Assembly (NCBI RefSeq): GCF_900141755.1
Contig: NZ_LT670844.1
Span: 2,914,001-2,978,000, forward strand
Direction: 5' to 3'
Length of the DNA stretch: 64,000 bases
Origin: Bradyrhizobium lablabi
GTDB lineage: Bacteria; Pseudomonadota; Alphaproteobacteria; Rhizobiales; Xanthobacteraceae
Position numbers and translations under genes: made by a program. The notes below the pieces were generated by a model that had not been told where the DNA came from, ran no database searches, and worked only from the letters and a program-made list of their open reading frames with translations. Positions 1 through 49,033 of the stretch are shown one piece after another; within the stretch, counting starts at the first letter, position 1, and each line of letters starts with the position of its first letter.

Positions 1-857
1 TCGAAAACGTCGAGGAAACCGGCGCCACAGCTCACGTAAACGCGCGCCCGCTTCGCATCGACAAACAGGTCATCAGCATCACCGCAGGTCTCGGCGGTCG
101 CAATGAGCTTGCCACCAGTCATGGAAAAAACGCCGAGCTCCGCAGGAGCCCGAAAGATTACAAGAACCTGGCGGCGGCCTTGATCGAGCGCCATTGGAAA
201 ATTCGCGCCCCGACCATGGGTTGGCCATTTCGCGATCTGCTTTTGCGAGACGCGGTCAACGACTGCGATACCGTGGCCATCCGGCACGTTGACGAAGATC
301 TGGCTGGTATCCGGGTCGATCTGGAAAGCTTCGGGGTGCGCCTTCACCGGAACGTCGCCAACCTTGCCATGGGTCGAAGGATCGATGACGGCAAGCGCCC
401 CGTTGCCGTATCCGATGAAGACCCGACTGGTCGCGGCGTCGATGCGAATATTGTCCGCGTCGTCGCCAAGCTCGATCTGTCCGGCGGACTTGTAGTCGTT
501 TCCTTCAAACAATCGTACCGAGCCATCTCCGGCATTAGCGATATAAAGCATGTCGGTCGACGGCTCGTAGCCGACGCCCTGGGGCTCCTTCAGTCCTGAA
601 ATCCTGCGGATCAACTTGCGATTTTGGAGATCGACAATTCCAACGCTGCCATTTCCTAATTCGGCAACGAATAGACGTTGCCGCTTCAAATCAACAGCCA
701 TGTGGTCGATCCGGCCGCGCACGTCGCCCAAGGGAATCTTTGCCTCAAGCTGGAGCGGCGCCGTCTCCGCGGGCTGGGCAAACACTGCGGTGTTAGCCAG
801 CACCACGATGCCGGCTAACATGGTCACGATCGTCGAGAGCGGATGTGACATCGCCAT
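1..857 (-). CDS. YncE-type beta-propeller protein, exported (3' end cut by window edge)
   Basis: The minus strand is open from an ATG at 857 to the left edge, giving at least 285 residues. An alternative in-frame ATG is at 851; AAGGA sits just upstream. The N-terminus (MAMSHPLSTIVTMLAGIVVL then AVFAQPA) is a clear Sec signal peptide. The rest shows repeated short beta-strand blades such as RIDHMAVDLKRQRLFVAEL, GVGYEPSTDMLYIAN and DNIRIDAATSRVFIGYG, the pattern of YVTN/YncE beta-propellers. These are periplasmic proteins, often of unknown ligand. The C-terminus lies outside the window. The next gene on the same strand is the Tat-exported superoxide dismutase, 255 bp upstream; co-transcription is uncertain. 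No enzymatic motif was seen. Confidence 0.85.
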   Translation of the reverse strand, partial: MAMSHPLSTIVTMLAGIVVLANTAVFAQPAETAPLQLEAKIPLGDVRGRIDHMAVDLKRQRLFVAELGNGSVGIVDLQNRKLIRRISGLKEPQGVGYEPSTDMLYIANAGDGSVRLFEGNDYKSAGQIELGDDADNIRIDAATSRVFIGYGNGALAVIDPSTHGKVGDVPVKAHPEAFQIDPDTSQIFVNVPDGHGIAVVDRVSQKQIAKWPTHGRGANFPMALDQGRRQVLVIFRAPAELGVFSMTGGKLIATAETCGDADDLFVDAKRARVYVSCGAGFLDVF

Positions 858-1012
858 AACATCCTTGAGGAATGAGTTGTTTCAGTTCCCAAATCCAAGG
901 CTGTTGGACAATCTTGAACGGTTTGCCAGCCTCAGCTAGTGGACCATTACCCAAGTCGGTTGAAGCAGCGGGCGAAGCGCAATCCAGGACCGGCGGATCC
1001 AATTGCAGCATT

Positions 1013-1050
1013 GCCCCGGATTTCGCTTCGCTTTATCCAGGCTACAACAG
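1013..1050. repeat. Bradyrhizobium-type short intergenic palindromic repeat
   Basis: Arms CCCGGAT and ATCCAGG-type sequence flank a TTCGCTTCGC core. This resembles a short palindromic element scattered between genes in Bradyrhizobium. It is slightly degenerate here. The rest of the 858-1112 gap shows no gene. Confidence 0.5.
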
Positions 1051-1112
1051 CTAATTTGCGGGGCCGCCTCCCGCCTTCGGACGCAAGCGAGGGACGTCGC
1101 GCAGTATAGCTG

Positions 1113-1835
1113 CTAGCTTTCGCGGCTGTACTGATCGTACAGCCTCAAAGCGTTGTCCCAGCGGATTGCCTCCATGTAGATGTCGACATAGCGCGCGGCT
1201 GCGGCGCCGTAGTCCATGTGATAGGCGTGCTCGTACATGTCGAGCACCAGCACCGGCCGGCCGCCGGCCAATGTCGTGGTGTGGTCCGCCGCCCATTGAT
1301 TGACGAGGCGCTTGTCGCGCGGCGAATAGGACAGGATCACCCAGCCCGAGCCGCCGCCTTCCGCCTTGCCCATCGCGGCGAATTCCGTGCGCCAACGCTC
1401 GAGGCTGCCGAAATCCCGCGCGATGGCGCCTGCCAGCGCGCCGCTCGCACTGGCACCGCCACCGAGCCCGTCGAAATAGATCTCGTGCAGGATCATCGAG
1501 TTCGCGGCGATCAATTCCTCGCGCTTCAAGCCGTTGATCACAAAATTCGGCGCCTTGGCGAAATCGAGTTCGGCGAGCTGCGTGCCGATCGCGTTGAGGC
1601 GTTTTACGGCGCCGACGTAGTTATTTTCGTAATGGCTTACGAGCACTTTTTCAGAAATGCCCTTGATCGACTTCGGATCGAGTGACAAAGGTTTTGCTTG
1701 ATACGGCATCGTTTTGGCTCCGCTTCCTTGGTTGCCTTGGGCGAATGCGGGGCTTGCCACTAGGGTCGCTGATGCGGCGGCGGCAGCGAGTCCCGCTCCC
1801 TGAATGAAGCTTCGGCGTTCGGTCGTGATGGTCAT
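1113..1835 (-). CDS. Fe/Mn superoxide dismutase with Tat signal
   Basis: 240 residues, starting at the ATG at 1835, which is preceded by AAGGAGT; a longer reading frame upstream lacks signal-peptide logic. Residues 7-33 form a twin-arginine signal (ERRSFIQG, an Ala-rich core, then AFAQ), so export in folded, metal-loaded form is inferred. The mature part is a complete Fe/Mn SOD. Likely metal ligands are His68 (VSHYENNY), His117 (MILHEIYF), Asp199 and His203 (LDMYEHAYHMDYG). It converts superoxide to peroxide and oxygen. The gap to the upstream LamG-like gene is 64 bp, so an operon with that gene and the rhodanese-ChrB gene is plausible. Iron versus manganese cannot be decided from sequence by eye. 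Confidence 0.93.
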   Translation of the reverse strand: MTITTERRSFIQGAGLAAAAASATLVASPAFAQGNQGSGAKTMPYQAKPLSLDPKSIKGISEKVLVSHYENNYVGAVKRLNAIGTQLAELDFAKAPNFVINGLKREELIAANSMILHEIYFDGLGGGASASGALAGAIARDFGSLERWRTEFAAMGKAEGGGSGWVILSYSPRDKRLVNQWAADHTTTLAGGRPVLVLDMYEHAYHMDYGAAAARYVDIYMEAIRWDNALRLYDQYSRES

Positions 1836-1899
1836 GGAAGACTCCTTGTGTTGACAGCCCCGAAAGGTGAACGTGGCAGACGACTGGTTGATTGCGGAC

Positions 1900-2595
1900 T
1901 CATGGCAACGGTGCGATCTCGATCTGGTCGAAGCGAGTGACGCTGTCGCCTTTGGTCCAGAGTGCGATCTTTCCCGCACCGGATAGAGTTCTATCGAACC
2001 CGGTGAACACCCAAATGCCGTCGAGCGAGACGACGAATTCGTCGTCCCTGGCTCGAACCGTCAGGGTATGCCAACTGTGCGATGCAACGTCCGCGTCAAC
2101 GCTTACGATCTCCTCCGACGCGCCGTCGCTCACGCGTGAGAAAAGAACTTCATCCCTCAGCGCATCCATTTGAACGAGATAATAATCTTGCGGGCTGCGG
2201 AGTCGCACGGCGACCCCACCGCCCTGATCTGACTTTCCCCCATCCGCTTTAAGGCGAAGGCTGATTTCCGCATTCTTGATCGATGCAGTTTTGTAGATCG
2301 CGAGTGGGAATCCGTCCTCGGCCGTCTGTACGCCGGACTGTTCGATGGCAAGGCCGGCGTTGGCGGTCGGGTCACCCACTATCGTCCACTGTCCTTGCGA
2401 TAGATCGAATTCGGCCGGGGCAGCTCCGATCTCACGTTTTCGGATGTCGATGGAGGTTGCTGCCCCGAGAGCGGTTGAGCCCAATTCCACGCAAGTAACG
2501 CACGCGAGAGCCAGGAGCACATGAAGCGTGAGAGCTCGACGACGAATGAATTTGCTGTTCAACACCTTCAGGCCCCAATTGCTTGCGCGGACCAA
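1900..2595 (-). CDS. secreted LamG/DUF1080-like jelly-roll protein
   Basis: 231 residues with an N-terminal hydrophobic signal (RRRALTLHVLLALACVTCVELGSTALGA, quoted as residues about 18-45 in pieces). The mature region has the strand pattern of concanavalin/LamG-like or DUF1080 domains: VAVRLRSPQDYYLVQMDALR, WHTLTVRARDDEFVVSLDG and a final GKIALWTKGDSVTRFDQIEI. No catalytic residues can be assigned. The ATG at 2595 overlaps the upstream rhodanese-ChrB gene by 28 bp. A GTG at 2565 that removes the overlap is an alternative start. The overlap and shared strand suggest translation coupled to that gene, followed by the SOD gene. Confidence 0.75.
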   Translation of the reverse strand: MVRASNWGLKVLNSKFIRRRALTLHVLLALACVTCVELGSTALGAATSIDIRKREIGAAPAEFDLSQGQWTIVGDPTANAGLAIEQSGVQTAEDGFPLAIYKTASIKNAEISLRLKADGGKSDQGGGVAVRLRSPQDYYLVQMDALRDEVLFSRVSDGASEEIVSVDADVASHSWHTLTVRARDDEFVVSLDGIWVFTGFDRTLSGAGKIALWTKGDSVTRFDQIEIAPLP

Positions 2596-3374
2596 TTATG
2601 TGTCTCGGCTTGCAGAGAGCGGCACCAAGTGTAGAGCGCGTCATAGATGACCATGCCATGCTTCAGCATTTCATGGTCGTCCGGAAAATTCGCCGAGAGA
2701 CCGAGCGAGATCGCGAACAGGCCGCCGCATTGAGGGCTTAGATCATGCCGCGATGTATCGGCGCCCCGGACAATCGTCGCGAGGTGATCGAGCGCCGGGT
2801 CCTTGATGTCGTATACGCGCAGGATGGTATCGAACGAGCAGCGCTCGCCCTCATGCGTGAATTCTACACCATCGATGTCGTACGCGATCCCACCCATCTG
2901 TTGGGCAACTGCAACGACCTGATCCTTCGGGACGTAGATGAACTCTGCATTGGGATCGATGAAGCGCCGGATCAGCCAGGGACACGCGATCCGATCGATC
3001 TTCGGGTGTTCTCGGGTCACCCATTTGCCAGGAGACCCCCCGATATTACGGCGCGTCGGCAATCCCTGCTCAGTCCAATTCGCGATGCCGCCTTCCAGGA
3101 AGTTGGCTTCCAATCCCATGAGACGCAACGCAGTGGCTACGCCTTGGCTAACTGCCTGTCCGTGAATGCAGTAGGTGACGACTTGCCGGCCGCACGGCAA
3201 CTCGGTTCGCCATTGTTCCACGTCATCGGGAGAGCAGTGAAACGCATCAGCCACGAGTGTGTCGGCGCCGGCAAAGTCAGCATCGCGCCGAACATCGACG
3301 ACGATCGGCGCCGCCTCGGAGCCTAGCCGTGCATAGAGGGCATCTGGGGAAATTGAATGTTTACGGTCGTCCAT
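2568..3374 (-). CDS. rhodanese-like domain fused to ChrB C-terminal (chromate resistance) domain
   Basis: 268 residues, starting at the ATG at 3374 with GAGGAG 8 nt upstream; a TTG at 3380 is possible but less likely. Residues about 8-110 are a rhodanese domain with the active-site loop CIHGQAVS (Cys69). Residues about 117-268 match the ChrB C-terminal family, with the hallmark WVTREHPKIDRIACPWLIRR followed by FIDPNAEFIYVP. ChrB-type proteins are linked to chromate resistance, and rhodaneses move sulfane sulfur. The fusion suggests sulfur-based redox or oxyanion detoxification, but the substrate is inferred. No chrA transporter is visible; a TauE/SafE exporter lies about 0.8 kb away on the same strand. 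Confidence 0.85.
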   Translation of the reverse strand: MDDRKHSISPDALYARLGSEAAPIVVDVRRDADFAGADTLVADAFHCSPDDVEQWRTELPCGRQVVTYCIHGQAVSQGVATALRLMGLEANFLEGGIANWTEQGLPTRRNIGGSPGKWVTREHPKIDRIACPWLIRRFIDPNAEFIYVPKDQVVAVAQQMGGIAYDIDGVEFTHEGERCSFDTILRVYDIKDPALDHLATIVRGADTSRHDLSPQCGGLFAISLGLSANFPDDHEMLKHGMVIYDALYTWCRSLQAETHNWSAQAIGA

Positions 3375-3789
3375 GCGCAAATCTCCTCGACAAGTCGAGT
3401 GTTGCGCAGTGCTTGGACCGTGGTCTCAAGGGGAGACTGCATTTTCCCCTTCGGATTTATTAATCAGGGCCCGTCCCAAACGCAAGACGGACAATCACCG
3501 AGCACGGACAAATCTTGGCCTGCTCGGGTCGCTTGCGCCTGTGTTGAGCAATAAACCTGTGCCCTCAAAGAGGTTCGCGTGCGGCATCACAAATTCGTGC
3601 GGATTTGTGCGCGGCACCGCAACGAAGTGTGTTGCTTCGGAACTTTTGCAGGACGATTTTTCGGGCTGGTCTCATTTAGAAAAAGCGCGAGCGTCGCGAT
3701 TGCGTCCCAAGGCGGAACCGCGGTGTCGAATAAGCGTTGCAGGCACGGACGATGTTTTCGGGATTCGCACAAGCCAGGGAGCACGGATC
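3375..3789. other. gene-free stretch with a small inverted repeat
   Basis: This stretch separates the divergent rhodanese-ChrB and PepSY genes and presumably holds both promoters. A 7-bp inverted repeat, CACAAAT (3588-3594) and ATTTGTG (3603-3609), is separated by 8 nt and could be an operator. Long reading frames through it have no protein-like composition. Confidence 0.4.
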
Positions 3790-4026
3790 ATGTCGGCGCG
3801 AGCAGTCTCTCAAGCGGTTCTTTACTCTATGCTGATGGTTGGCGTCTTCTCGCCTGCCCATGCCCTGACCCAGCAGGAGCTTATAGCCAAGCTTGAATCC
3901 GCGGGTTATTCGCAAATCCGAGAAATCAAATCCACCGCGGAAGGTACGTCCGTCAAGGCGATGAAAGACGGCAAGGAAGTGTCCCTCGTCGTCGATAGCA
4001 GCGGCCAAATCCAAGAACGGCGCTAG
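3790..4026 (+). CDS. small secreted PepSY-domain protein
   Basis: 78 residues from the ATG at 3790. The N-terminus (SQAVLYSMLMVGVFSPAHAL) is a signal peptide ending in AHA. The remainder (LTQQELIAKLESAGYSQIRE, TSVKAMKDGKEVSLVVDSSG) is a single PepSY-type fold as found in short periplasmic PepSY proteins. The reading frame extends far upstream, but only this start gives an export signal. Function is unknown; PepSY domains are thought to act as inhibitors or ligand-binding modules. The neighbour to the right is a convergent TauE/SafE gene. Confidence 0.75.
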   Translation: MSARAVSQAVLYSMLMVGVFSPAHALTQQELIAKLESAGYSQIREIKSTAEGTSVKAMKDGKEVSLVVDSSGQIQERR

Positions 4027-4195
4027 AAACTCGTCTGTCGTCGCGCCAATCCGTTGCCGCCAGAGGTCCGTCGCTTCGAGTTTGTGGCGCAACGCGGACG
4101 AGTTCACCCCGCCTCGCGGTGCCGCCGCATGCCCAAACTCGGAAATCGAATACTTCTTCATTCAGAAAAATAATCGGCCTGCTCTTGGTGTGCCC

Positions 4196-4939
4196 TCAGT
4201 AAATCAGCGCCGCGCCCGACACCAGCAGAAGGATCAGCACCACTCTCCGGAAAGTAGCCTCGTCGAGACGTCCGTAAAGTTTCATGCCAAGCCATGTCCC
4301 GGCGAGCAGTACCGGCAATCCGAACAGAAACATTCGGATCGTGTCCGCCGATACCACGCCCTTGACGCCAAGCCACACAGCACTCATGGCGAAGGTCGCC
4401 ACAGCAACCGGCTGAAAGATGGTGCGCTGCCGATCCTTCGGCCAACCGCGCAGGCCGCACCAGATCGTCACCACGATGCCCGCGAGTCCCGTTATTCCCC
4501 CGAGCACGCCATTCAGAAATCCGATGCCGGCGTCAACGGTTGCGCCTCCACCCACCGATGCGATTTTCGGACGAAGGAGTGCGTAAAGGCTGTAGAGCAC
4601 GAGAAATACGCCGATGCCGGTCTTGACGTGCGCAGGGTCCGCCCAGCCGAGAATCGAAATGCCGACCGGCACACCGATGACGGCGCCGGCCAGGAACGGC
4701 CAGAGCTTGCTCCAGTCGAGCGCGTGCCGCAGCTTCCAGACCGAGTAACCCTGCACGATCAAGCCGAACGCAACGATCAGCGTCGCGGTTTGCAACGGCG
4801 TGAGGATGTAGAGCCAGATCGACGCCGCGACCAATCCAAAGGCAAAGCCCGACAGGCCGGCGACCAGCGCCCCGGCAAACGTCGCAATGAGAAAGGTGGT
4901 GAGATCGAGGGAAAACACGTCCATGGAAAACACATTCAT
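4196..4939 (-). CDS. TauE/SafE family sulfite/anion exporter
   Basis: 247 residues from the ATG at 4939 (GGAG 8 nt upstream). Eight or so hydrophobic segments include TTFLIATFAGALVAGLSGFA at the N-terminus and the repeat-like GFLNGVLGGITGLAGIVVTI in the second half. This duplicated small-residue-rich pattern is diagnostic of the TauE/SafE (DUF81) family of inner-membrane exporters of sulfite or organosulfonates. Proximity to a rhodanese-ChrB protein suggests a sulfur-related role, but the substrate is not shown by sequence. Convergent with the PepSY gene. Confidence 0.9.
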   Translation of the reverse strand: MNVFSMDVFSLDLTTFLIATFAGALVAGLSGFAFGLVAASIWLYILTPLQTATLIVAFGLIVQGYSVWKLRHALDWSKLWPFLAGAVIGVPVGISILGWADPAHVKTGIGVFLVLYSLYALLRPKIASVGGGATVDAGIGFLNGVLGGITGLAGIVVTIWCGLRGWPKDRQRTIFQPVAVATFAMSAVWLGVKGVVSADTIRMFLFGLPVLLAGTWLGMKLYGRLDEATFRRVVLILLLVSGAALIY

Positions 4940-5063
4940 GCGCTCGCTCCAAGCCAAAGCGAGCAGCGCTTGAATGGGTGTCCCATTTGACGGGGAGGCT
5001 GCGATGCCCCCGCTCCCTCAGCCTACCTCAAATCGCGATCGGAACCAATCGACAATAACTGAA

Positions 5064-5312
5064 TCATCCCGCGGATGGCTCCTTCACCCCGAGCATCGCC
5101 GCCGCAGTCAATGCGGCGTACGCGCAAAACCCGATCGCGCCGAGATCGAGCCAGAAGATGGCGACCAGCGCGCACGCTATGTTCGCAAGGAGACGGACGG
5201 CGTTAGCCGTCACGGTCAATATGACGCTGCCGAACCCTTGCGTTACGAAGTAAAGCGGCATCCCCAGGCCGTACAATCCGTAGAGGCCGTCAACTGGGCC
5301 GAAATTCAATTG
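5064..5312 (-). pseudogene. C-terminal remnant of a MATE-family efflux transporter
   Basis: The minus strand encodes about 80 residues that read as the last two transmembrane helices of a MATE transporter (GLGMPLYFVTQGFGSVILTV, VRLLANIACALVAIFWLDLG, FCAYAALTAAAML). A full MATE protein is about 450 residues. Nothing upstream continues it; the preceding DNA is the end of an SDR gene. I read this as a deletion remnant. A short membrane protein of its own is possible but unlikely. Confidence 0.6.
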
Positions 5313-5326
5313 AATTAGGCCGTGTA

Positions 5327-6073
5327 CTAGAGCTTCGAACCGCCATCCACGTGGATGGTATCGCCGGTGATCCACCTTGCATTGTCCGATGCCAGGAAGG
5401 CGATCACGCCACCGATGTCGTCGGGCTGCGCGAGGCGCTTCAGCGCCTGCATGCCCAGCGCGTCGTCGCGGCCGGCGTCCGTCCTGGTGAAGTTCAACAT
5501 GTCCGTCTCGACGACACCGGGCGCGACGGCATTGACGCGGATACCACGTGCGCCAAGTGCCGAGGCGAAATGCTTCACCAGGGTGTCGATGGCGCCCTTG
5601 GTTGCTGCATACGCTGGTTCCGTACCAACCACGGCGCGCGCCGCGAGCGACGAGAGGAAAACGATGCTGCTTCCCTTCGACATGATCGGAAGCAGCTGCT
5701 GCACAAGAAAGAACGGTGCGCGGACATTCACTGCGAAGAGCTTATCGAAATCCTCGACCGTCGTTTCCTCGATGGTCGCCGCTTTCAAGACCCCTGCATT
5801 GGCGACCAGGATGTCCAGGCGATCTCCGACAATGCTGCGGGCCTGCCTGGCAAGCTTGCTGGCGCCGTCCGCGGCGGCGAGGTCGGTCGCTATGGCATCC
5901 GCTCGGCCGCCGGCTTCGCTTATCTCTGCGACAACCTCGTCGGCTTCCTTCGCTCCACGGCCGTAATGCACGAGAACCTGGGCGCCGGCGGCAGCGAGCG
6001 CGAGTGCGCTGGCGCGTCCTATGCCGCGCGAAGCGCCGGTAACGAGAGCGGTTTTGCCGGTGAGACTAGGCAT
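5327..6073 (-). CDS. SDR-family NAD(P)-dependent oxidoreductase
   Basis: 248 residues from the ATG at 6073; an in-frame ATG at 6079 adds two residues. It is a classical short-chain dehydrogenase: cofactor motif TGASRGIG near residue 13, the NAG motif (ILVANAGVL), catalytic Ser in FLSSLAAR, YAATK (Tyr and Lys) and a C-terminal TGDTIHVDGG. The substrate is unknown. It is the third gene of a same-strand set (SDR 7105-7851, hydrolase 6121-6987, this SDR), 47 bp downstream of the hydrolase. A divergent LysR regulator likely controls the set. Confidence 0.92.
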   Translation of the reverse strand: MPSLTGKTALVTGASRGIGRASALALAAAGAQVLVHYGRGAKEADEVVAEISEAGGRADAIATDLAAADGASKLARQARSIVGDRLDILVANAGVLKAATIEETTVEDFDKLFAVNVRAPFFLVQQLLPIMSKGSSIVFLSSLAARAVVGTEPAYAATKGAIDTLVKHFASALGARGIRVNAVAPGVVETDMLNFTRTDAGRDDALGMQALKRLAQPDDIGGVIAFLASDNARWITGDTIHVDGGSKL

Positions 6074-6120
6074 GATCATCGTCCGGGTTGTTGCTGTGGC
6101 GGATAACGTGACTTCGATCC

Positions 6121-6987
6121 TCACCCGTCTCGGCGCTCGTCCGCCGACAGGAACATCGAGACATGACGGACGAAGAGTTCGGGATACTGGTACTGCGAGC
6201 CGTGATTTGCGTCGGGATAGAGGATGAGTTGGGCGTTCGGCAGTTGCTGCTGCAGGATGAACGAGTTCACGGAGTAGATGATCACGTCCTTGCCGCCGTT
6301 CACGACCAGGGTCGGCTGGCGGATCGACTTCAGATATTCGAACGGTTTCTCCTGCGGCGCGCCCCATTTGCCGATCGCCTCGAGCTGGGCAGGCGCGACT
6401 GTCCCGTTCACCTCGGGATCGCGGTTCTCGCTGCGCAGCCGGAAGCGCTCGAGGAATTCACGTCCCTTAGCCTGGCTCTGCTCGGACGGCGTGAAGTGCA
6501 CGCGAAGCCAGAGATGATCGGGCTCGTCATAGGTGGCGCCGAAGATTTCCTGCGCCTCTGGCGTGAGGGTGGCCATGCCCTCGCCGCTGCGCGGACCGGT
6601 GCCGACCAACACCAGGCGCCTGACGAGATCGGGAGCCTGAAGGGTGATTTCCTGCGCGACAAAGCCGCCGATCGAGAAGCCGAGCACATCGACTTTCGTC
6701 AGTCCCAGCGCCTTGATGAAGGCCACGGCGTTGGCGCCCATTTTCTCGAACGTCGTGGGCACCTCTCCAGAAGAACTGGATATGCCGGCGTTGTTGAACA
6801 GGATCACTTCGCGGTCCTTGGCGAAACCGTCGGTCACCGCCGGATCCCAATGGTCCATGGTGCCCGTAAAGTGCTGGTTGAAGACGAGCGGCACGCCGGC
6901 TGCATTGCCAAAGCGGCGATAGGCAAAGCGGATGCCGTTAGCTTCGACGAACTGCGTCGGGGCGGTCTGGTGACTGTGCTGGGTCAT
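6121..6987 (-). CDS. alpha/beta-fold hydrolase
   Basis: 288 residues, with AGAGGGAA upstream of the ATG at 6987. The oxyanion/HG-like region is NQHFTGTMDHWDP. The nucleophile elbow is GFSIGGF, the acid is in VVNGGKDVII, and the catalytic His is in DANHGSQYQ. The family includes esterases, haloperoxidase-like and lactone hydrolases; the substrate cannot be named. It sits between two SDR genes on the same strand, which suggests a small catabolic or detoxification pathway in which oxidoreductases and a hydrolase act on a common compound. Confidence 0.9.
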   Translation of the reverse strand: MTQHSHQTAPTQFVEANGIRFAYRRFGNAAGVPLVFNQHFTGTMDHWDPAVTDGFAKDREVILFNNAGISSSSGEVPTTFEKMGANAVAFIKALGLTKVDVLGFSIGGFVAQEITLQAPDLVRRLVLVGTGPRSGEGMATLTPEAQEIFGATYDEPDHLWLRVHFTPSEQSQAKGREFLERFRLRSENRDPEVNGTVAPAQLEAIGKWGAPQEKPFEYLKSIRQPTLVVNGGKDVIIYSVNSFILQQQLPNAQLILYPDANHGSQYQYPELFVRHVSMFLSADERRDG

Positions 6988-7041
6988 TGAGGTTCCCTCT
7001 GGCGGTGGCGCTTAGGCCGATATGCGAAGTGGTTCGAAGGC

Positions 7042-7064
7042 GGGCGGCCTCGGGAAGACCGCCC
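7042..7064. terminator. GC-rich hairpin between SDR and hydrolase genes
   Basis: GGGCGG (7042-7047) pairs with CCGCCC (7059-7064) across an 11-nt loop. No U-tract follows on the minus strand, so it may be an attenuator, an mRNA-stability element or nothing. Confidence 0.3.
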
Positions 7065-7104
7065 CTCAATCGGGCGCGGAGCGAACCTCCGCGCGCGGAC
7101 AGGA

Positions 7105-7851
7105 TCAGTTCGCGGTCATACCGCCGTCGACGTTAAGGACCTCGCCCGTGATCCACTTGGCTCCGTCCGACGCGATGAAGACGATACCGTCGGCGATTTC
7201 CTCGGCGAGACCGAGACGATCCAGCGGAACCTGCCTCACCAGGCCGGCCTTGTTCGCGGACGTGCCGGTGAAGCGGGTCAGCATGCCCGTGTCCGTGGGG
7301 CCAGGGGCTACGGCATTCACGCGAATGCCCGACTTGGCGATTTCGAGCGCCACCGACTTGGTGATGCCTTCGACAGCGTGCTTTGCGCCGACGTAGATCG
7401 AGGCGTAAGCCGCGCCCCTGTGTCCGTAGGTCGACGAAATATTGATGATGCTGCCGCTCCCCTGCGCCTGCATCGCGCGCACTTCGTGCTTCATGCTCAG
7501 GACGACGCCGAGAACGTTGGTCTCGAAGGTCTGATTGAAGGTCTCCGCGGTCTGGTCGGTGATCGGGCCGACCGCACCTTCGGTGGCGGCGTTGTTCACC
7601 GCGACATCGAGACGGCCAAACCGTGCGACGGTCTTGTCGACCATGGCGCGGACGTCGTCCTCCTTGCGGACGTCGGCGTTGATGAACTCGGCCTCGGAAC
7701 CCAAAGAACGGAGTTCCTTGACGAGCGCCTTGCCGGCCTCATCACGCCGACCGGCAACGACCACCCTCGCGCCCTTCTTGGCGAAGGCGACGGCGGCGGC
7801 GCGCCCGATGCCCGTTAATCCACCGGTGATCAATACGACTGGGTTGCTCAT
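7105..7851 (-). CDS. SDR-family oxidoreductase
   Basis: 248 residues. Motifs in order: TGGLTGIG cofactor loop near residue 9; NADVRKEDDV; VNNAATEGAVG; INISSTYGHRG with catalytic Ser; YVGAKHAV (Tyr, Lys); and TGEVLNVDGG near the end. All SDR catalytic residues are present, so it is probably active; the substrate is unknown. It is the promoter-proximal gene of the SDR-hydrolase-SDR set and faces the LysR gene across a 177-bp gap. Confidence 0.92.
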   Translation of the reverse strand: MSNPVVLITGGLTGIGRAAAVAFAKKGARVVVAGRRDEAGKALVKELRSLGSEAEFINADVRKEDDVRAMVDKTVARFGRLDVAVNNAATEGAVGPITDQTAETFNQTFETNVLGVVLSMKHEVRAMQAQGSGSIINISSTYGHRGAAYASIYVGAKHAVEGITKSVALEIAKSGIRVNAVAPGPTDTGMLTRFTGTSANKAGLVRQVPLDRLGLAEEIADGIVFIASDGAKWITGEVLNVDGGMTAN

Positions 7852-8028
7852 TTTGTAATTCTCGCAATTTGCTGCCCTACCGGCAGAGTATGGAAGGGAA
7901 ATGTCTGGCCCCGGCGCTTAGAGAGCCGAGAACAGTCACTAGTTCTTTCGTGAGCGGCTATGTAGGCTCCCCCGGCGCACGCGAAAAAGACTTTGTAAGC
8001 TTAGGGGCATGCCCTGGAGGTATGGAAG
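7852..8028. promoter_or_regulatory. divergent LysR/SDR control region
   Basis: This 177-bp gap between a LysR gene and an oppositely transcribed operon is the classic place for a LysR-type binding site and two overlapping promoters. I could not fix one T-N11-A box with confidence. GGAGG lies just before the LysR start at 8029. Confidence 0.5.
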
Positions 8029-8964
8029 ATGGAACTACGGCACCTTCGCTATTTCATCGCGGTCGCCGAGGAGGGCAGCCTGACGCTCGCGGCTGAGAAA
8101 AGGCTGCACACGGCACAGCCTTCCCTCAGCCGCCAAATCCGCGATCTCGAATACGAGGTTGGCGTCCAATTGATGAGCCGCAGCGTGCGCGGCATCGAAC
8201 TGACCGCCGCAGGCACGGCCTTTCTCGACCATGCACGGCTGGCGCTGGCGCAGGTCGATGCCGCGGTGGAAACGGCGCGCAGGGCCGCACAGCCCGCAAG
8301 AAAGACGTTCGCCATCGGCTTCCAAACCGGACACGAGATGAACTGGCTGCCGCGGGCCATGCATCTGCTGCGCGACGAGCTGAAGAACATCCAGGTCACG
8401 ATATCGAGCGACTATTCGCCTGATCTCGCCGAGGCGCTCGTCCGCGGCCGGCTCGACGTAGCCTTCCTGCGCGCCGAGCCGGCCTTTGACCTGTGCTACG
8501 AGGTGGTCGACCACGAGCCGCTCATCGTCCTGATGCCGAGCGACCATCGCCTCATCAGCCGCGAAGCTGTTCACCCGCGGGAATTCGTCGGCGAGATCTT
8601 CATCGGCGGTTCAAACAAGGCCACCGTGCTGCGCGCCGTGACCGAGGACTATCTGCGCCGCTCCGGGCTCGACATCAAATTGGATCATGGGGTGGACAAC
8701 ATGGCGATGGCCATGTCCCTGGTTGCGTCCACCCGCGGGTTGGCGCTTATGCCCGCCTATGCGAAGAATCTGCTGCCGTGGTCCGTGGTCAGCCGTCCGC
8801 TGGAGGGTGAAGCACCAACGATCGATCTCGCCGTGGGTTACAGCAAGGCGAACACCTCGCCGATTCTCAAGCTGTTCCTCTCCAGAATTAATGAGTTGAC
8901 CGCCCGAGCATCCAGCAAGGCTCGCCGAACGAGTGGACCGGGATCGGCCGCCGCGCCGCGATGA
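8029..8964 (+). CDS. LysR-family transcriptional regulator
   Basis: 311 residues. Residues 1-60 are the winged helix-turn-helix (MELRHLRYFIAVAEEGSL, LHTAQPSLSRQIRDLEYEVG, GIELTAAGTAFLDHA). Residues about 90-290 form the periplasmic-binding-like effector domain (FAIGFQTGHEMNWLP, LVRGRLDVAFLRAEP). The family binds T-N11-A sites and usually autoregulates while activating the divergent neighbour, here the SDR-hydrolase-SDR operon. The inducer is unknown but is probably a substrate or intermediate of that operon. Confidence 0.93.
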   Translation: MELRHLRYFIAVAEEGSLTLAAEKRLHTAQPSLSRQIRDLEYEVGVQLMSRSVRGIELTAAGTAFLDHARLALAQVDAAVETARRAAQPARKTFAIGFQTGHEMNWLPRAMHLLRDELKNIQVTISSDYSPDLAEALVRGRLDVAFLRAEPAFDLCYEVVDHEPLIVLMPSDHRLISREAVHPREFVGEIFIGGSNKATVLRAVTEDYLRRSGLDIKLDHGVDNMAMAMSLVASTRGLALMPAYAKNLLPWSVVSRPLEGEAPTIDLAVGYSKANTSPILKLFLSRINELTARASSKARRTSGPGSAAAPR

Positions 8965-9054
8965 CGCGAGTGCAGACTGTGGCAGCGGGGGCTGCTCCTC
9001 TGGCACGCTCCGCAAAGAGCGGGGCGTGGGAGATGCGACCGCCGCCCCGCGAAT

Positions 9055-9443
9055 CTACCCCACCCAAAACCCCGGCAGCGTCGGCTCGAGCCTGCCGCCC
9101 ACCCGCACCGGCGCGATCCGCAATGCAAGCCCCGTCGCGTCGTCGGTCTCGACCGCGACGCCGCTCAGCGTCGCGACACCGAGCGCCGGTTCGAACCGGC
9201 CCGAGGGAATGCCGGTCACAAAGCGGCGCAGCGGCTCTTCCTTTTGCATGCCGATGATGGAGTCGTAATCGCCGGTCATGCCGGCGTCGGTCATGTAGGC
9301 GGTGCCGCCCGAAAGAATCTGGTGGTCGGCGGTCGGCACATGCGTATGGGTGCCGACGACGAGGCTGGCGCGGCCGTCGCAGAAAAAGCCGATGGCTTGC
9401 TTTTCGCTGGTCGCCTCGCAATGGAAATCGACCACGATGGCAA
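9055..9443 (-). pseudogene. duplicated 3' end of the ymdB-like metallophosphoesterase gene
   Basis: About 390 bp align in the same orientation with 10425-10813, the 3' half of the intact gene, with about 20 mismatches by eye (about 95%), mostly silent. The encoded frame is intact from VDFHCEATSEK to the same final residues GFWVG and a TAG stop. The duplicate has no 5' half; homology stops abruptly in front of a toxin-antitoxin promoter. With the intact copy it forms direct repeats around about 1 kb of foreign-looking DNA. This is expected if an element inserted at the 3' end of the gene and brought a replacement end. Confidence 0.85.
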
Positions 9444-9464
9444 TGCCACCTTCGTTCGCGCGGC

Positions 9465-9493
9465 TTGACGAATTATGTGAAATATCACATAAT
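9465..9493 (+). promoter_or_regulatory. toxin-antitoxin promoter with overlapping palindromic operator
   Basis: TTGACG (9465-9470), a 17-nt spacer and CATAAT (9488-9493) make a good sigma-70 promoter. A perfect inverted repeat, ATTATGTGA (9472-9480) and TCACATAAT (9485-9493) with a 4-nt spacer, covers spacer and -10 box. The downstream HTH antitoxin is the likely repressor. The predicted transcription start falls at about 9500, on the ATG at 9499. Confidence 0.75.
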
Positions 9494-9498
9494 CCGTC

Positions 9499-9870
9499 AT
9501 GGTTCGAAGGGCTGACGAGCCGAGGCCGCTTATCTGGCGCGGAGCCTCGAAGACCGACTTTATGGCGTTTCCTCCGACCGTGCAGCGCGAGATGGGCTAT
9601 GTGCTGTTTTTGGCGCAAATGGGCGAACGTCATTCAAGCACGGCCAAGACGCTTGGCGGCTTCGGCGGGGCAACCGTGATCGAGGTGAGGGAAAGCTATG
9701 ATGGCAACGCCTACCGGGCAGTTTACACGGTGCGCTACGCCGACGCCGTCTACGTCCTTCACGCGTTCCAGAAGAAATCAAAGAAGGGCATCGCGACGCC
9801 CAAGGCAGAAATCGACTTGATCGAAAAACGCCTGAAAGACTTGATCAAGGAGAAGGAAGGACGACAATGA
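9499..9870 (+). CDS. HigB/Gp49-like toxin of type II toxin-antitoxin system
   Basis: 123 residues. The block RPLIWRGASKTDFMAFP (residues 9-25) and the C-terminal YVLHAFQKKSKKGIATPKAE are hallmarks of the phage-derived Gp49-like (HigB/RelE-fold) toxins, which inhibit translation by mRNA cleavage. The start at 9499 is supported because the conserved RPLIW motif begins only 8 residues later. The mRNA would be leaderless, or nearly so. It overlaps the antitoxin gene by 4 bp (ATGA), toxin first, as in HigBA. Confidence 0.88.
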   Translation: MVRRADEPRPLIWRGASKTDFMAFPPTVQREMGYVLFLAQMGERHSSTAKTLGGFGGATVIEVRESYDGNAYRAVYTVRYADAVYVLHAFQKKSKKGIATPKAEIDLIEKRLKDLIKEKEGRQ

Positions 9871-10208
9871 CAAAAACACCTGCGGCCAAGGACCCGACGC
9901 GAAACGTGTGGCTGCAGCTCGGATTTCCCGACGCCGAAGAGCATTTTCTGAAGGCTGAGCTCGTCCTTCGGCTAGACAAGGCAATCAATTCGCTCGGTTT
10001 GACCCAACGCGCCGCCGCGCGGAGGATTGGAGCCACTCAGCCCGAATTGTCGAAAATCCTGGGAGGAAAATTCAGCGAAGTTTCCCTCGAACGGCTGATG
10101 CGCTTTCTGACCGCTCTCGGCTGTCATATCGAGATCAAAATTGGGGCCGGACAGGAAAACAAGGCCGGGGACGTCACCATCAAAGATGTCCGACGCACGG
10201 CTGCGTGA
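9867..10208 (+). CDS. XRE-family HTH antitoxin (HigA-like)
   Basis: 113 residues, starting in the ATGA overlap with the toxin; a GGAGAAGGAAGGA tract precedes it. Residues about 30-90 form a helix-turn-helix (LRLDKAINSLGLTQRAAARR, IGATQPELSKILGGKFSEVS, LERLMRFLTALG). This domain binds the operator and the toxin is neutralised by complex formation. It presumably represses the promoter at 9465-9493. The pair sits between direct repeats of the ymdB 3' end, so it looks acquired. Confidence 0.88.
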   Translation: MTKTPAAKDPTRNVWLQLGFPDAEEHFLKAELVLRLDKAINSLGLTQRAAARRIGATQPELSKILGGKFSEVSLERLMRFLTALGCHIEIKIGAGQENKAGDVTIKDVRRTAA

Positions 10209-10272
10209 GTAGAGCCACAGCTCCCACGCGAAGTGGCGGCATCCGGTGGTTGTGGAATAACCCAGCCCGTAG

Positions 10273-10301
10273 GGCGGATTGAGCCGAAGGCGCAATCCGC
10301 C
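10273..10301. repeat. intergenic hairpin repeat (GGCGGATTG type)
   Basis: GGCGGATTG (10273-10281) and CAATCCGCC (10293-10301) form a perfect 9-bp stem around AGCCGAAGGCG. It is typical of a repeated intergenic element in Bradyrhizobium. It may also act as a terminator for the upstream toxin-antitoxin pair, although no U-tract follows. Confidence 0.6.
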
Positions 10302-10322
10302 AACTCGATACCTCTACCGAAG

Positions 10323-10372
10323 TGGCGCACCGGAGGAGATTCGAACTCTTGACCGCCAGATTCGAAGTCCGG
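10323..10372 (-). pseudogene. 3' half of a tRNA-Arg-like gene (anticodon arm to CCA)
   Basis: On the minus strand the 50 nt read as an anticodon arm (CCGGA, loop CTTCGAA, TCTGG; apparent anticodon TCG), a 5-nt variable region, a T-arm with TTCGAAT loop (stem AAGAG/CTCCT with one mismatch), acceptor strand CCGGTGC, then GCCA. No 5' half (acceptor strand or D-arm) precedes it. It is therefore not a functional tRNA. Such 3' fragments are typical of attachment-site remnants left by tRNA-targeting integrative elements. It lies 50 bp from the ymdB stop. Confidence 0.65.
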
Positions 10373-10421
10373 CCGCAGGCGTCGATATCTCAAAAGATTT
10401 ACACGCCAGTAAGTCCACTAG

Positions 10422-11246
10422 CTACCCCACCCAAAACCCCGGCAGCGTCGGCTCGAGCCTTCCCCCCACCCGCACCGGCGCGATCCGCAATGCGAGCCCC
10501 GTCGCGTCGTCGGTCTCGACCGCGACGCCACTGAGTGTCGCAACACCGAGCGCCGGTTCGAACCGCCCCGATGGAATGCCCGTCACAAAGCGCCGCAGCG
10601 GCTCTTCCTTTTGCATGCCGATGATCGAGTCGTAATCGCCGGTCATGCCGGCGTCGGTCATGTAGGCGGTGCCGCCCGAAAGGATCTGGTGGTCGGCGGT
10701 CGGCACGTGGGTGTGGGTGCCGACCACGAGGCTGGCGCGGCCGTCGCAGAAAAAGCCGATGCCTTGTTTCTCGCTGGTCGCCTCGCAATGGAAATCGACC
10801 ACGATCGCATCCGCCGCCGCGCCCAGGGGGCAGGCTTCGAGCTCGCGGTTAAGAACCGCGAACGGGTCGTCAAACGGGGTCATGAAGACCCGCCCGATGG
10901 CGTTGATGATGAGCGCGCGCTTGCCGTTTTTGGTGTCGATCAGCGCGGTGCCGCGGCCGGGTGTGCCTCTGGGAAAATTCGCGGGCCGCACCAAGCGCGG
11001 CGCGCGCTCGATGAACACCAAGGCCTCGCGCTGATCCCAGGCATGGTTGCCGAGGGTTATGGCATCGGCGCCGGCGTCGATGATTTCCTGGTAGATCACT
11101 TCGGTGATGCCGAAGCCGCCGGCGGCATTTTCGCCGTTGACGACGACGAGGTCGAGCGCCCAGTCGCGGATCATGCCGGGCAGGTGTTCCGAGATGGCCG
11201 TGCGACCGGCCCGGCCGACCACGTCCCCGACAAACAGAATGCGCAA
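10422..11246 (-). CDS. ymdB: YmdB-type metallophosphoesterase (TIGR00282 family)
   Basis: 274 residues. Metal-binding motifs are GDVVGRAGR (residue 7 on), VVNGENAAGG, LGNHAWD, VDFHCEATSEK and GTHTHVPTAD, in the order found in TIGR00282 proteins. The B. subtilis member is a metal-dependent phosphodiesterase acting on cyclic nucleotides or RNA turnover; the role here is inferred. It ends 2 bp before the cyclo-ligase gene is entered on the same strand, consistent with co-transcription from the zapA/cyclo-ligase side. Its 3' 390 bp exist a second time at 9055-9443. Confidence 0.93.
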   Translation of the reverse strand: MRILFVGDVVGRAGRTAISEHLPGMIRDWALDLVVVNGENAAGGFGITEVIYQEIIDAGADAITLGNHAWDQREALVFIERAPRLVRPANFPRGTPGRGTALIDTKNGKRALIINAIGRVFMTPFDDPFAVLNRELEACPLGAAADAIVVDFHCEATSEKQGIGFFCDGRASLVVGTHTHVPTADHQILSGGTAYMTDAGMTGDYDSIIGMQKEEPLRRFVTGIPSGRFEPALGVATLSGVAVETDDATGLALRIAPVRVGGRLEPTLPGFWVG

Positions 11247-12071: not shown

Positions 12072-12238
12072 AAGCGCGAGGCCGCAATCGCCGTTGGAGC
12101 ACTCGATCCCGGAGTTCCCTACGAAAGTAGGTGGGCACCATATGACCGGATCCACGGACCCGGCCAGGGACAGTTCCCTAAAGGATCGATAAGGCCCCGG
12201 GGATATATGGCTCCTGACGCGCGACACAGCCTCGCCTG
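12072..12238 (-). ncRNA. ssrS: 6S RNA (SsrS), regulator of RNA polymerase
   Basis: It lies between zapA and the cyclo-ligase gene on their strand, the conserved 6S locus. The closing stem is visible: GCGAGGC (12235-12229) pairs with GCCTCGC (12082-12076). That gives about 160 nt, the usual alphaproteobacterial size. Internal strands GTGCCCACCTAC and GGGAACTCCGGGATC resemble known 6S helices around the open-promoter-like bubble. A T-rich run (CTTTTTGTTTT) follows the 3' arm at 12075-12064, and TACATT about 8 nt before the 5' end could be its -10 box. 6S RNA binds sigma-70 holoenzyme in stationary phase. Ends are approximate. Confidence 0.8.
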
Positions 12239-34766: not shown

Positions 34767-34860
34767 CTCCCCCGTCGTCCCGGCGAAGGCCGGGGCCGGA
34801 TCACCAACGATGCATATTGATGCTCTCGCAGGTCAATCCCGGCCTTTCAAGCGATCCAGC
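34767..34860. repeat. partial intergenic repeat (GTCGTCCCGGCGAAGGCC family)
   Basis: CGTCGTCCCGGCGAAGGCC then GGGGCCGGATCACCAACGA is a familiar half-element in Bradyrhizobium intergenic DNA. Only one arm is obvious here. It overlaps the 3' end of the HAD gene by about 28 bp. Confidence 0.45.
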
Positions 34861-35486
34861 AAAGTCCGCAAATCCTGCGGCGTCGCGCAGAGATGTTGCG
34901 CACCGGCACCGCGCAGTTCGGCTTCCGATCCATAGCCATAGAGAACGCCGACGGATGTCATCTGGTTGTGGCGCGCGCCGATCATGTCGAAACTCCGGTC
35001 ACCGACCATCACAGCGCGGCGTCCGTCCAGCCCGCTTTGCTCGAGTGCGTATTTAAGGAGCTCGGTTTTTTCGGCGTAGGCGCCATCGAGCCCGCTGCCG
35101 AAGACCCGTTCGAAATATGACGTCATGCCAAAATGGGCGATGATGCGTTCGGCGAATATGGCGGGCTTGCTGGTGGCCACGAACAGCCGCGGACCGCCAA
35201 CGAGCGCGGCGAGCAAATCCGGGATGCCGTAATAGACGCTGTTCTCGTAAATCCCGATCTCGGAAAACCGCTCGCGATAGAGCGCAACCGCCCGCTCCGC
35301 CAAAGCCTCCCTGCCGAGCATGGTCCTGAAACTTTTGAGCAAGGGCGGCCCAATGCACCACAGCAAATCCTGCTCCTCTGGGACGGGATGATCGAGCGCA
35401 GCCAGCGCATACTGGATCGACCGCGTGATTCCGATCCTGGGATCGGTCAGTGTGCCGTCAAGGTCGAAAAAGATCGCGTCCATCAT
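34833..35486 (-). CDS. HAD-family hydrolase, phosphoglycolate-phosphatase-like
   Basis: 217 residues; ATGs at 35486 and 35483. Motif I is FFDLDGTLTDP, motif II Ser/Thr is in FVATSKPAIF, motif III Lys in AEKTELLKYAL and motif IV VMVGDRSFDMIGA. The cap domain is helical (IGITRSIQYALAAL onward), as in Gph-type enzymes. It should remove phosphate from a small metabolite, phosphoglycolate being one candidate given the Calvin-type genes elsewhere. Its 5' third has a diverged direct copy at 36995-37168. Confidence 0.92.
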   Translation of the reverse strand: MMDAIFFDLDGTLTDPRIGITRSIQYALAALDHPVPEEQDLLWCIGPPLLKSFRTMLGREALAERAVALYRERFSEIGIYENSVYYGIPDLLAALVGGPRLFVATSKPAIFAERIIAHFGMTSYFERVFGSGLDGAYAEKTELLKYALEQSGLDGRRAVMVGDRSFDMIGARHNQMTSVGVLYGYGSEAELRGAGAQHLCATPQDLRTLLDRLKGRD

Positions 35487-35669
35487 CCACTCAAACCAGG
35501 GCGTGCTGACACAAGGACGCGTTCGATCTTTTCAAGAGCCTGCCTGCCCGGGTTCGGTTCATGCCCCCGTCGCGCACTTGTAATACTAGGTCGCTAGCAC
35601 GATATCCCGGCGCGGTTCGCCAATGTGACCCGTGCAAATCGAATTGTCATCAGCTTTTGGGGGTCATCC

Positions 35670-36920
35670 ATGTTCGACTTCGCCAAATGGCCGCTCGCCA
35701 CGGCCATGCTCATAGGAACGCTCGCGGCTGCACCGTCGGCGATGGCGCGCGACGGTGATCACGGCGATCGAGACGGCCGGATCGGCCATGTCTTTGTCAT
35801 TGTACTCGAGAACGAAGGCTTTGACGTCACCTTTGGACCCAATTCGCCCGCGCCCTTCCTGTCGAAGACCCTGCCGAGCCAGGGCGTCATGCTCAACAAT
35901 TATTTCGGCACCGGGCATGTGAGCCTCGACAATTACATCGCGATGATCAGCGGCCAGGCGGCGACGCCGCAGACCCGCAACGACTGCGGCGTATATCAGG
36001 ATTTCGCGCTCACCGGGATCACTCTGGACGGTCAAGCGATCGGCACCGGTTGCGTCTACCCCGCCGTCATCAGGACGCTTCCCGATCAGCTCAAAGCAGC
36101 CGGCAAGACCTGGCGTGGTTACATGGAGGACATGGGCAACGATCCGGCTCGCGAGCAGGCAACCTGCGGCCAGCCCCTTGCCCTTGGCAAAGTAGCCCTC
36201 AACCAAGGCGATGATACGCAAGCGGCCGAGGCGGCGGATCAGTACGCCGCGCGCCACAATCCTTTCGTCTACTTCCACTCGCTCATCGATAGCGGCGCTT
36301 GCGCCAACAACGTGGTCAACTTCAATCGTTTGGCGCAGGACCTGGCCTACGAGTCGACGACGCCGAATTTCGCGTTCATCACGCCCAATCTCTGCCATGA
36401 CGGCCATGATGCGAAATGCAAGAACGGAGAGACCGGCGGCCTCGCCGGGGCCGATGCCTTCCTGCAGAAAACTGTCCCGATGATCTTGAACTCGCCCGCC
36501 TACAAGGAGGACGGGTTATTGATCATCAACTTCGACGAGGCTAGCCTCGACGCAGCGCCGGGTGGAAAGGGCAACTTCGTCATCAGTGCAGCGGGCGAGA
36601 CCTGCTGCGGTCAGCAACCCGGACCCAACATCGGGCCCTTCCCGCAGACCACAACTCCGTTCCCCAATGTGATATTCAGCTTCCAAAGCTTCGGTGGCGA
36701 TCGCACGGGCGCCGTGCTGCTATCGCCGTTCCTGAAGCCCGGAATCGTGTCCAACGTCCCCTACAACCACTATTCCATGCTGAAGACGGTAGAGGACATT
36801 TTCAGGCTCGATCATCTCGGCTACGCCGGCCAGCCCGGACTGCAAGGGTTCTTCGGCTGCGCCAACTCGGACATTCCCACCCGCGCGGACGATCAATTCG
36901 GCCGGTGTGAGCGAGACTGA
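35670..36920 (+). CDS. secreted phosphoesterase (PF04185, acid phosphatase/phospholipase C-like)
   Basis: 416 residues from the ATG at 35670. The signal peptide is FAKWPLATAMLIGTLAAAPS then AMA. Metal-binding blocks are VFVIVLENEGFDVTFG, NNYFGTGHVSLDNYIAMISG, FAFITPNLCHDGHDAKC and LLIINFDEASLD, in the order of PF04185 phosphoesterases. HYSMLKTVEDIFRLDHLGYA is the conserved C-terminal block. It probably acts on phosphate esters outside the cytoplasm. It is framed by an intact HAD gene and a HAD fragment. Confidence 0.88.
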   Translation: MFDFAKWPLATAMLIGTLAAAPSAMARDGDHGDRDGRIGHVFVIVLENEGFDVTFGPNSPAPFLSKTLPSQGVMLNNYFGTGHVSLDNYIAMISGQAATPQTRNDCGVYQDFALTGITLDGQAIGTGCVYPAVIRTLPDQLKAAGKTWRGYMEDMGNDPAREQATCGQPLALGKVALNQGDDTQAAEAADQYAARHNPFVYFHSLIDSGACANNVVNFNRLAQDLAYESTTPNFAFITPNLCHDGHDAKCKNGETGGLAGADAFLQKTVPMILNSPAYKEDGLLIINFDEASLDAAPGGKGNFVISAAGETCCGQQPGPNIGPFPQTTTPFPNVIFSFQSFGGDRTGAVLLSPFLKPGIVSNVPYNHYSMLKTVEDIFRLDHLGYAGQPGLQGFFGCANSDIPTRADDQFGRCERD

Positions 36921-36994
36921 TCTCTCTCTATCTGTGTCGATCTGTCGGCGGCCCTTGACGGCTTGTTCGTCGGGGGCCGCTTTCTTTTCGCACT

Positions 36995-37168
36995 TGGCCA
37001 AAGCTTCGCTACTGAGCATGGTCCTGAAACTTGCCTTCAAGGGCGGCCCGATGCACCACAGCAGATCCTGCTCCGCCGGGACGGGATGATCGAGCGCACC
37101 CAGCGCATATTGGATCGACCGGGTGATTCCGATTTTCGGATCGGTCAGCGTGTCGTCGAGGTCGAGAA
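36995..37168 (-). pseudogene. 5' fragment of a HAD phosphatase gene
   Basis: The minus strand reads LDLDDTLTDPKIGITRSIQY then ALGALDHPVPAEQDLLWCIG, in one frame, closely matching the N-terminus of the intact HAD protein at 34833-35486 (roughly 85-90% at DNA level by eye over about 170 bp). The start codon is lost, and similarity ends after MLSSEALAK. It is a direct repeat of 35309-35486 around the phosphoesterase gene. The remainder of 36921-37297 contains no other gene. Confidence 0.8.
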
Positions 37169-48811: not shown

Positions 48812-48929
48812 GCAAAGAAAGCCCGTCGTGGGGTCGCGGTTTAACGGCCGCGACCTCATGCTGGTACAGGATAAGCTTATCCTTGATGGTTGGTCGGCGC
48901 GACGGGGCCGCGAGCAAGGCGGCAATCCC

Positions 48930-49033
48930 TAGAGCGTGATGACTTTTCTTCGAATCGTCATCCCGCTCTATCTTTTTGTTTGAGCATGATCTTTTCGGAA
49001 AACCGGTACCCACTTTTCCGGATCATGCCCTAG
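48930..49033. repeat. intergenic repeat (AGCATGATC/CGGAAAAGTGGG family)
   Basis: AGAGCGTGATGACTTTTCTT, CATCCCGCTCTATC, GAGCATGATCTTTTCGGAAA and ACCCACTTTTCCGGATCATG are all present. This is a widespread Rhizobiales intergenic repeat. Its end supplies the TAG stop codon of the MBL-fold gene. Confidence 0.88.

Follow-up and report, generated by a model that had tools for sequence, protein, structure and literature searches.

A second, silently diverged ymdB 3' end beside a HigBA-like module in Bradyrhizobium lablabi: probable scar of a one-sided DNA capture

Many small bacterial islands have neither an integrase nor an obvious route of entry. The locus described here lies in a 64,000-nucleotide stretch of the Bradyrhizobium lablabi genome (contig NZ_LT670844.1, positions 2,914,001 to 2,978,000; the whole stretch is called the window below), where the 3' end of the phosphoesterase gene ymdB occurs twice, with a HigBA-like toxin-antitoxin pair between the two copies. 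Integrative elements such as phage 21 and e14, both at icd, carry a replacement gene end with them. The minimal mobile elements of Neisseria are swaps of cargo between two conserved flanking genes. Insertion of restriction-modification genes with a long target duplication has been described in Helicobacter pylori (Nobusato et al. 2000, as described in the relevant part of PMC1643837). For displaced 3' ends in the type VI effector arrays of Vibrio cholerae, homology-facilitated illegitimate recombination has been proposed, not proven, and the passages of PMC5361080 that set this out cite orphan 3' regions at Rhs loci as a related case.

The Bradyrhizobium locus is read here as the probable scar of a one-sided capture of DNA at ymdB, by homology-facilitated illegitimate recombination. 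The features on which this reading turns are the following.

10422-11246, minus strand: intact ymdB (TIGR00282 metallophosphoesterase and PF13277), 274 amino acids, TTG start
9055-9443, minus strand: partial ymdB copy (the leftover end), the last 389 nt, from about codon 145 to the stop codon
9444-10421: insert between the two ymdB ends, 978 nt, GC 57% against 67% for ymdB

The two copies lie in direct orientation, and the 3' end of the intact gene is the copy that adjoins the insert. They differ at 22 of 389 sites (BLAST: 94.6% over 388 nt, E 4e-173) and form the longest and strongest repeat in a self-comparison of the window and the 24 kb to its left, counting matches of at least 80 nt. Their homology is limited by the stop codon on one side and by about codon 145 on the other. 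Within the 384 nt that can be read in frame there are 21 differences, spread over the three codon positions as 0/1/20; 20 of the 21 differing codons are silent and one is a replacement. When drift of a non-coding copy was simulated, 12.3 codons changed on average, and one or fewer in none of the 2000 runs. With differences that are almost all silent, the two ends diverged while each belonged to a working ymdB gene, so one of them was brought in from another, closely related lineage. Local duplication followed by drift is ruled out by the silent pattern, both here and in a second genome, G083 (simulations 0/2000 in each). Against the partial copy, the best-matching ymdB 3' ends of other genomes in the genus reach 87-89% identity. 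The initial annotation had noted about 390 bp of the ymdB 3' end twice in direct orientation with mostly silent mismatches, and had suggested that the second end came from a related strain rather than from recent local duplication; the counts and the simulation bear out both points, in that one end does appear foreign. Genomes are given G numbers throughout, with G000 for the genome of the window and the others for members of a genus set of 265 genomes, one per species.

In the proposed course of events, a close relative would have supplied DNA in which a ymdB 3' end was trailed by a remnant of tRNA-Arg, a repeat and the HigBA pair. The incoming ymdB end would have recombined by homology with the resident ymdB, and at its other end the incoming DNA would have been joined to the resident gene around codon 145, with no long homology there. 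What results would be a functional ymdB that ends in the incoming sequence, followed by the cargo and by the truncated old 3' end of the resident, still on its old downstream DNA. HigBA may have served as an addiction module that helped the cargo persist. We infer that the end adjoining the insert is the incoming one, whatever the route by which the DNA entered, and that the leftover end is native. Distances to 60 relatives, tried as a guide to the direction of transfer in G000, gave no resolution: the partial copy is the nearer of the two for 36 relatives and the intact end for 20, with mean identities of 85.0 and 84.7%. Lower identity in the 3' than in the 5' part of ymdB was also considered as a sign of replacement and was not used; G083 ranks high by this measure, as do genomes without a known duplicate.

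The locus is like the Neisseria minimal mobile elements in that different cargos are exchanged between the same conserved neighbours by recombination, and unlike them in the truncated gene end left behind. With the V. cholerae arrays, as the sections of PMC5361080 on displaced ends describe them, it shares a homologous anchor in the upstream part of a gene, a new 3' end with downstream cargo, and an old 3' part kept downstream. The anchor here is ymdB, conserved in nearly all genomes of the set, whereas the anchor there is a variable toxin gene, and the new 3' end here codes for nearly the same protein.

The same layout, that is an intact ymdB, cargo and a truncated ymdB 3' end in direct orientation, was found in other genomes of the genus. 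A genome-wide DNA search with the partial copy, scored for two candidates per genome, gave a match in 263 of the 265 genomes. One 99%-complete genome, G114, has no match to the ymdB 3' end and a weak match to a longer query only. The 65 genomes with at least two matches were searched again. Most second matches were short or distant, and those lying away from ymdB or in distant ymdB paralogues (G112, G150, G204, G259) were discarded; the matches kept, beside ymdB, were those in G083 and G212, one at a contig end in G030 and a 50-nt match in G104. A profile of the last 300 nt of ymdB was searched against 1.13 Mb of DNA downstream of the gene, in 129 loci from 128 genomes (6 of the loci shorter than 7 kb). 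At E <= 0.001 it found a same-strand remnant in 6 of the 128 genomes (G000, G083, G212, G104, G126 and G077), the last two of which the genome-wide search had not shown, and no opposite-strand remnant in the 129 loci. Genomes with a single match in the genome-wide search may therefore still carry a remnant. G000, G083, G212, G104 and G030 had been chosen for a known second match, not blind; among the 100 loci fetched without prior knowledge of a second match, 2 have a remnant (G126 and G077).

Altogether six genomes besides G000 have the layout (in G030 it is split over contigs), and they carry other cargos, of four kinds. G083 has a 285-nt second end 1.25 kb from ymdB, with a DUF347 gene preceded by a truncated related piece as cargo (locus L094, 8059-9875). 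The second end of G212 is 149 nt long, 1.84 kb from ymdB, with TetR and mandelate-racemase-like genes (locus L095, 2373-4510). In G030 the partial copy, at least 207 nt with 202 of 207 identical, sits at a contig end beside native backbone, on another contig than ymdB, and its cargo is an acetyltransferase-like frame, recognised by eye. The cargo of G104, G126 and G077 is a gene for a secreted-looking protein. Relatives with the duplicate but without the toxin-antitoxin genes had been named as a finding that would speak against the initial annotation; no bare duplicate was seen, and all six genomes carry a different cargo.

The silent divergence recurs as well. The two G083 ends differ in 24 silent and 3 non-silent codons, where drift would give 16.0 changed codons (0/2000 runs), and those of G212 in 11 silent and 3 non-silent codons, as counts without simulation. 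The partial copies start at about codons 145, 181 and 222, so their joints fall at variable points without long homology, as random joints would give, and at the three junctions inspected the sequence leading up to the joint does not resemble that of the intact gene. Identity between the two G083 copies is 98% near the joint and 82-92% beyond that, a mosaic that is expected if the crossover fell inside the duplicated part.

In G104, G126 and G077, ymdB is followed by the gene for the secreted-looking protein and then by a ymdB-end remnant of 67-91 nt, a shared layout that could reflect either one inherited event or spread by recombination. In separate pairwise alignments, the G077 remnant is 71.6% identical to its own intact end, and 83 of 127 other ends are closer to it, the best at 85.1%; of the 20 ends nearest to G077, 13 match the remnant better than the intact end does. 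It had seemed that all three remnants are closer to other genomes, and this pairwise control upholds that for G077, partly for G126 and not for G104. Replacement of the resident end by a foreign one within the intact gene is accordingly supported in G077, weakly in G126 and not in G104. By eye, the final codons of the intact gene in G126 and G077 are unlike the other rows shown, and the remnant keeps the usual ending; the bases after the remnants resemble those directly after ymdB in other genomes, and may be dispersed repeats. In 14 further loci, none with a detected remnant, the gene directly after ymdB is a homologue of the G104-type cargo (54-64% identical), so this cargo is a usual neighbour of ymdB. 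G077 had itself been taken for a genome with a G104-type gene and no remnant, until the profile search showed the remnant. The picture in G077, and less firmly in G126, is of an incoming ymdB end that would have arrived with the usual kind of neighbour, leaving the native end behind. Homology-facilitated illegitimate recombination, in the form proposed for V. cholerae in the cited sections of PMC5361080, predicts just such a layout.

The insert in G000 contains the following features.

9466-9499: palindrome (TTATGTGA..TCACATAA) before higB, its core kept in three related HigBA loci
9499-9870, plus strand: HigB-like toxin gene, 123 amino acids, PF05973 (Gp49), E 4e-22
9867-10208, plus strand: HigA-like antitoxin gene, 113 amino acids, PF13744 (HTH_37), E 6e-22
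10263-10303: dispersed palindromic repeat (GGCGGATTG..CAATCCGCC), with 12 further matches in G000 at E <= 0.1
10315-10372, minus strand: 3' part of a tRNA-Arg, from the anticodon arm to CCA, with a few flanking bases

These confirm the HigBA-like pair, palindromic repeat and tRNA 3' fragment that the initial annotation had placed in the insert. A Gp49/RelE-superfamily toxin gene is followed by a helix-turn-helix antitoxin gene in one operon, the gene arrangement of a HigBA module. As in HigBA-type modules that combine PF05973 with PF13744, the toxin gene comes first, the antitoxin gene overlaps it, here by 4 nt, and a palindrome precedes the toxin gene; this palindrome is a probable HigA operator. 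Unlike in those modules, neither protein matched an NCBIfam model and the toxin matched no solved structure by sequence. The antitoxin matches the structure 2o38 (E 1e-12) and, remotely, antitoxin HigA3 (6lty, E 0.0015). Family membership suggests that the HigB-like protein would be toxic.

Toxin matches occur in 73 of the 265 genus genomes (G000 included, with three weaker matches elsewhere in its own genome), and the best-scoring one outside G000 is 58% identical, which agrees with the expectation that this HigBA cargo is not common to the genus. In a one-genome-per-species collection, the nearest toxins among the matches listed (at least 80) are 74% and 78% identical; they come from two metagenome-assembled genomes, labelled Hyphomicrobiales bacterium and Rhizobium sp. 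Q54, in both of which the antitoxin is 80% identical. The palindrome core before higB is conserved in the three nearest relatives, and codon differences from two relatives are mostly at third positions, so the module looks intact and maintained. The tRNA piece is 88% identical over 58 nt to tRNA-Arg(ACG) of G000 and 85% over 60 nt to tRNA-Arg(TCG), and it suggests that the incoming DNA once included an island end. Rfam matches over the insert were weak, below threshold, and were not used. A second tRNA-Arg 3' piece, with no tRNA gene found, lies in locus L081 (genome C1:658003-658051) and is possibly an old island end.

The surroundings of ymdB were compared in 17 relatives' loci, with backbone genes recognised by eye. 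Chemotaxis-receptor genes lie downstream of ymdB, at variable distance, in 14 of the 17 loci, and ruvC and its neighbours lie beyond them in at least 8. In G000 an accessory segment stands between the leftover ymdB end and this backbone (chemotaxis-receptor genes, ruvC-ruvA-ruvB), which lies some 21 kb further left.

1-9054: right part of the accessory segment, 21 kb in all (genome about 2901.7-2923.05 kb), which separates the ymdB leftover from the backbone

None of the 17 loci has a counterpart, near ymdB, of the part of the segment that falls in the window, and in six single-chromosome genomes (G091, G025, G031, G131, G226, G259) the listed matches to the 4.5 kb next to the leftover are 0.4 Mb or more away from ymdB; the 21-kb stretch is regarded as accessory for these two reasons. 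A 105-nt repeat, 98% identical, occurs at window positions 48929-49033 and at genome C1:2902032-2902136. The latter copy lies where the accessory segment meets the backbone, and the ymdB-downstream region of G031 has a further copy at 94%.

Other histories could give a similar arrangement. The initial annotation proposed the remnant of an element that integrates at gene 3' ends and carries a replacement end, with a ymdB end as its target and only its addiction module left. This would be a site-specific integrative element (a phage, island or mobilisable unit) whose integrase is now lost or acts in trans. We consider this unlikely. It has the attraction that a carried replacement end is also under selection, so that silent differences are expected, and that homology would stop at the stop codon, both as in phage 21 and e14; the insert holds a tRNA-Arg 3' piece, a typical feature of island ends, and insertion at one gene end is recurrent. 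Unlike in those elements, the genes identified in the inserts of G000, G083 and G212, where short frames were not all searched, include no integrase, and no fixed core site is shared by starts at three different codons, though different elements could use different cores. The G104-type cargo, whose homologues are ordinary ymdB neighbours, also tells against such an element. Neither did a viral, plasmid or phage carrier of a closely related ymdB end come to light: no IMG/VR viral contig has such an end, in a search that reaches close relatives only, and the plasmid (36 records, 30 listed) and phage (10) matches are distant, with at most 70.6% protein identity among those listed. A search of the open-licence literature, outside which most subscription journals lie, found no paper that brings ymdB, Bradyrhizobium and integrase together. 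What stands of the proposal is the replacement end from a related lineage, and what was not found is an integrase of its own, a fixed core, or a carrier; the source is possibly an element that has lost its integrase. Insertion with a long target duplication, in which entry of the cargo into the ymdB region of this same genome would have produced a local duplicate of about 390 nt of target, seems highly improbable. The layout and repeat length fit, and as in H. pylori, in the account that PMC1643837 gives of that work, a small cargo, often of the addiction type (restriction-modification there, toxin-antitoxin here), lies between long direct target repeats; the copies are sisters in four genomes, and in G104 the genome's own end is among those closest to the remnant. 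Unlike in that account, the repeats here differ at 5.5% of sites, almost all silent, and for this reason they are not drifting copies that date from the insertion. Local copies start identical and the truncated one drifts freely, so the single changed codon, against the 12.3 expected, strongly disfavours this history for G000, whose ends do not behave as local copies. The G077 remnant, closer to most other ymdB ends than to its own, counts against it too. A capture in the reverse sense is improbable as well: the intact ymdB, tRNA piece and HigBA would be native, and the partial copy would have come in with the 21-kb segment, anchored by homology in the chemotaxis-receptor region. The structure alone gives no direction, and the segment is accessory, with the distant matches given above. 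Against this, the partial copy is next to or near native backbone in G030 and G212, and the G077 remnant looks like a native end.

Several observations weigh against one-sided capture itself. In a tree of 65 ymdB 3' ends the two G000 copies are sisters (support 100/93), as are those of G083 (98/91), G030 (99/99) and G212 (100/100), and this alone would also fit local duplication. Sister copies within the strain had been named as a result that would count against a foreign end; they are sisters, but the silent pattern excludes a drifted local duplicate, so the tree does not separate the two ideas. The remnants of G104 and G126 are both 79.1% identical to their own intact ends. Other ends are closer in only 5 of 127 cases for G104, and for G126 in a minority of 36 of 127, including 7 of the 20 nearest. 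G121 has a G104-type gene, 88% identical, with no remnant detected, and the G030 case is possibly an assembly artefact. The G083 cargo is no usual ymdB neighbour among the matches listed; its homologue in G143 sits in another context, so both G083 joints look new. In G000, G083 and G030 the stop codon is the exact limit of the homology, and a site-specific element would give the same. A donor in which the tRNA piece and HigBA come after ymdB did not turn up, only a shared repeat in one other locus, and since the set has one genome per species there is no same-species empty site to inspect.

The window holds a second duplicate-end structure, at 34833-37168, with the same kind of layout as the ymdB locus.

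34833-35486: HAD-hydrolase gene, intact
35625-36920: phosphoesterase gene, between the HAD gene and its partial copy
36997-37168: copy of the 5' part of the HAD gene, 172 nt, 86.6% identical, 23 differences

The differences fall on codon positions as 5/6/12 and give 9 silent and 9 non-silent codons, where simulated drift predicted 13.3 changed codons (P 0.04). It gives the impression of an older structure, in part decayed. Relatives of the phosphoesterase stretch occur in G252, where it lies 0.84 Mb from the HAD match, and in G173 and G090.

A wider idea, which we put forward tentatively and as a whole find rather doubtful, is that the ymdB 3' end is a standing capture site in the genus, where unrelated small cargos are repeatedly stitched in without a recombinase of their own. 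If so, every event would restore ymdB and leave the old end behind as a dated fossil, HigBA and other addiction cargos would guard the insert against loss by recombination between the ends, and the HAD-hydrolase 5'-end structure, a weaker parallel, would suggest a general route of gene gain in these genomes. Leftover gene ends can as fossils record the direction, donor divergence and age of captures at one conserved gene in several species. If the capture reading is right, scanning for truncated, silently diverged gene ends would count recombinase-free gene gains per genome, and a toxin-antitoxin module would take its place among the cargos gained by such capture.

Two kinds of RNA match were seen elsewhere in the window. 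A 6S RNA match lies at 12075-12235 on the minus strand, upstream of the gene adjoining ymdB, and two chrB-b RNA motif matches above the gathering score lie at 3406-3450 and 4963-5012.

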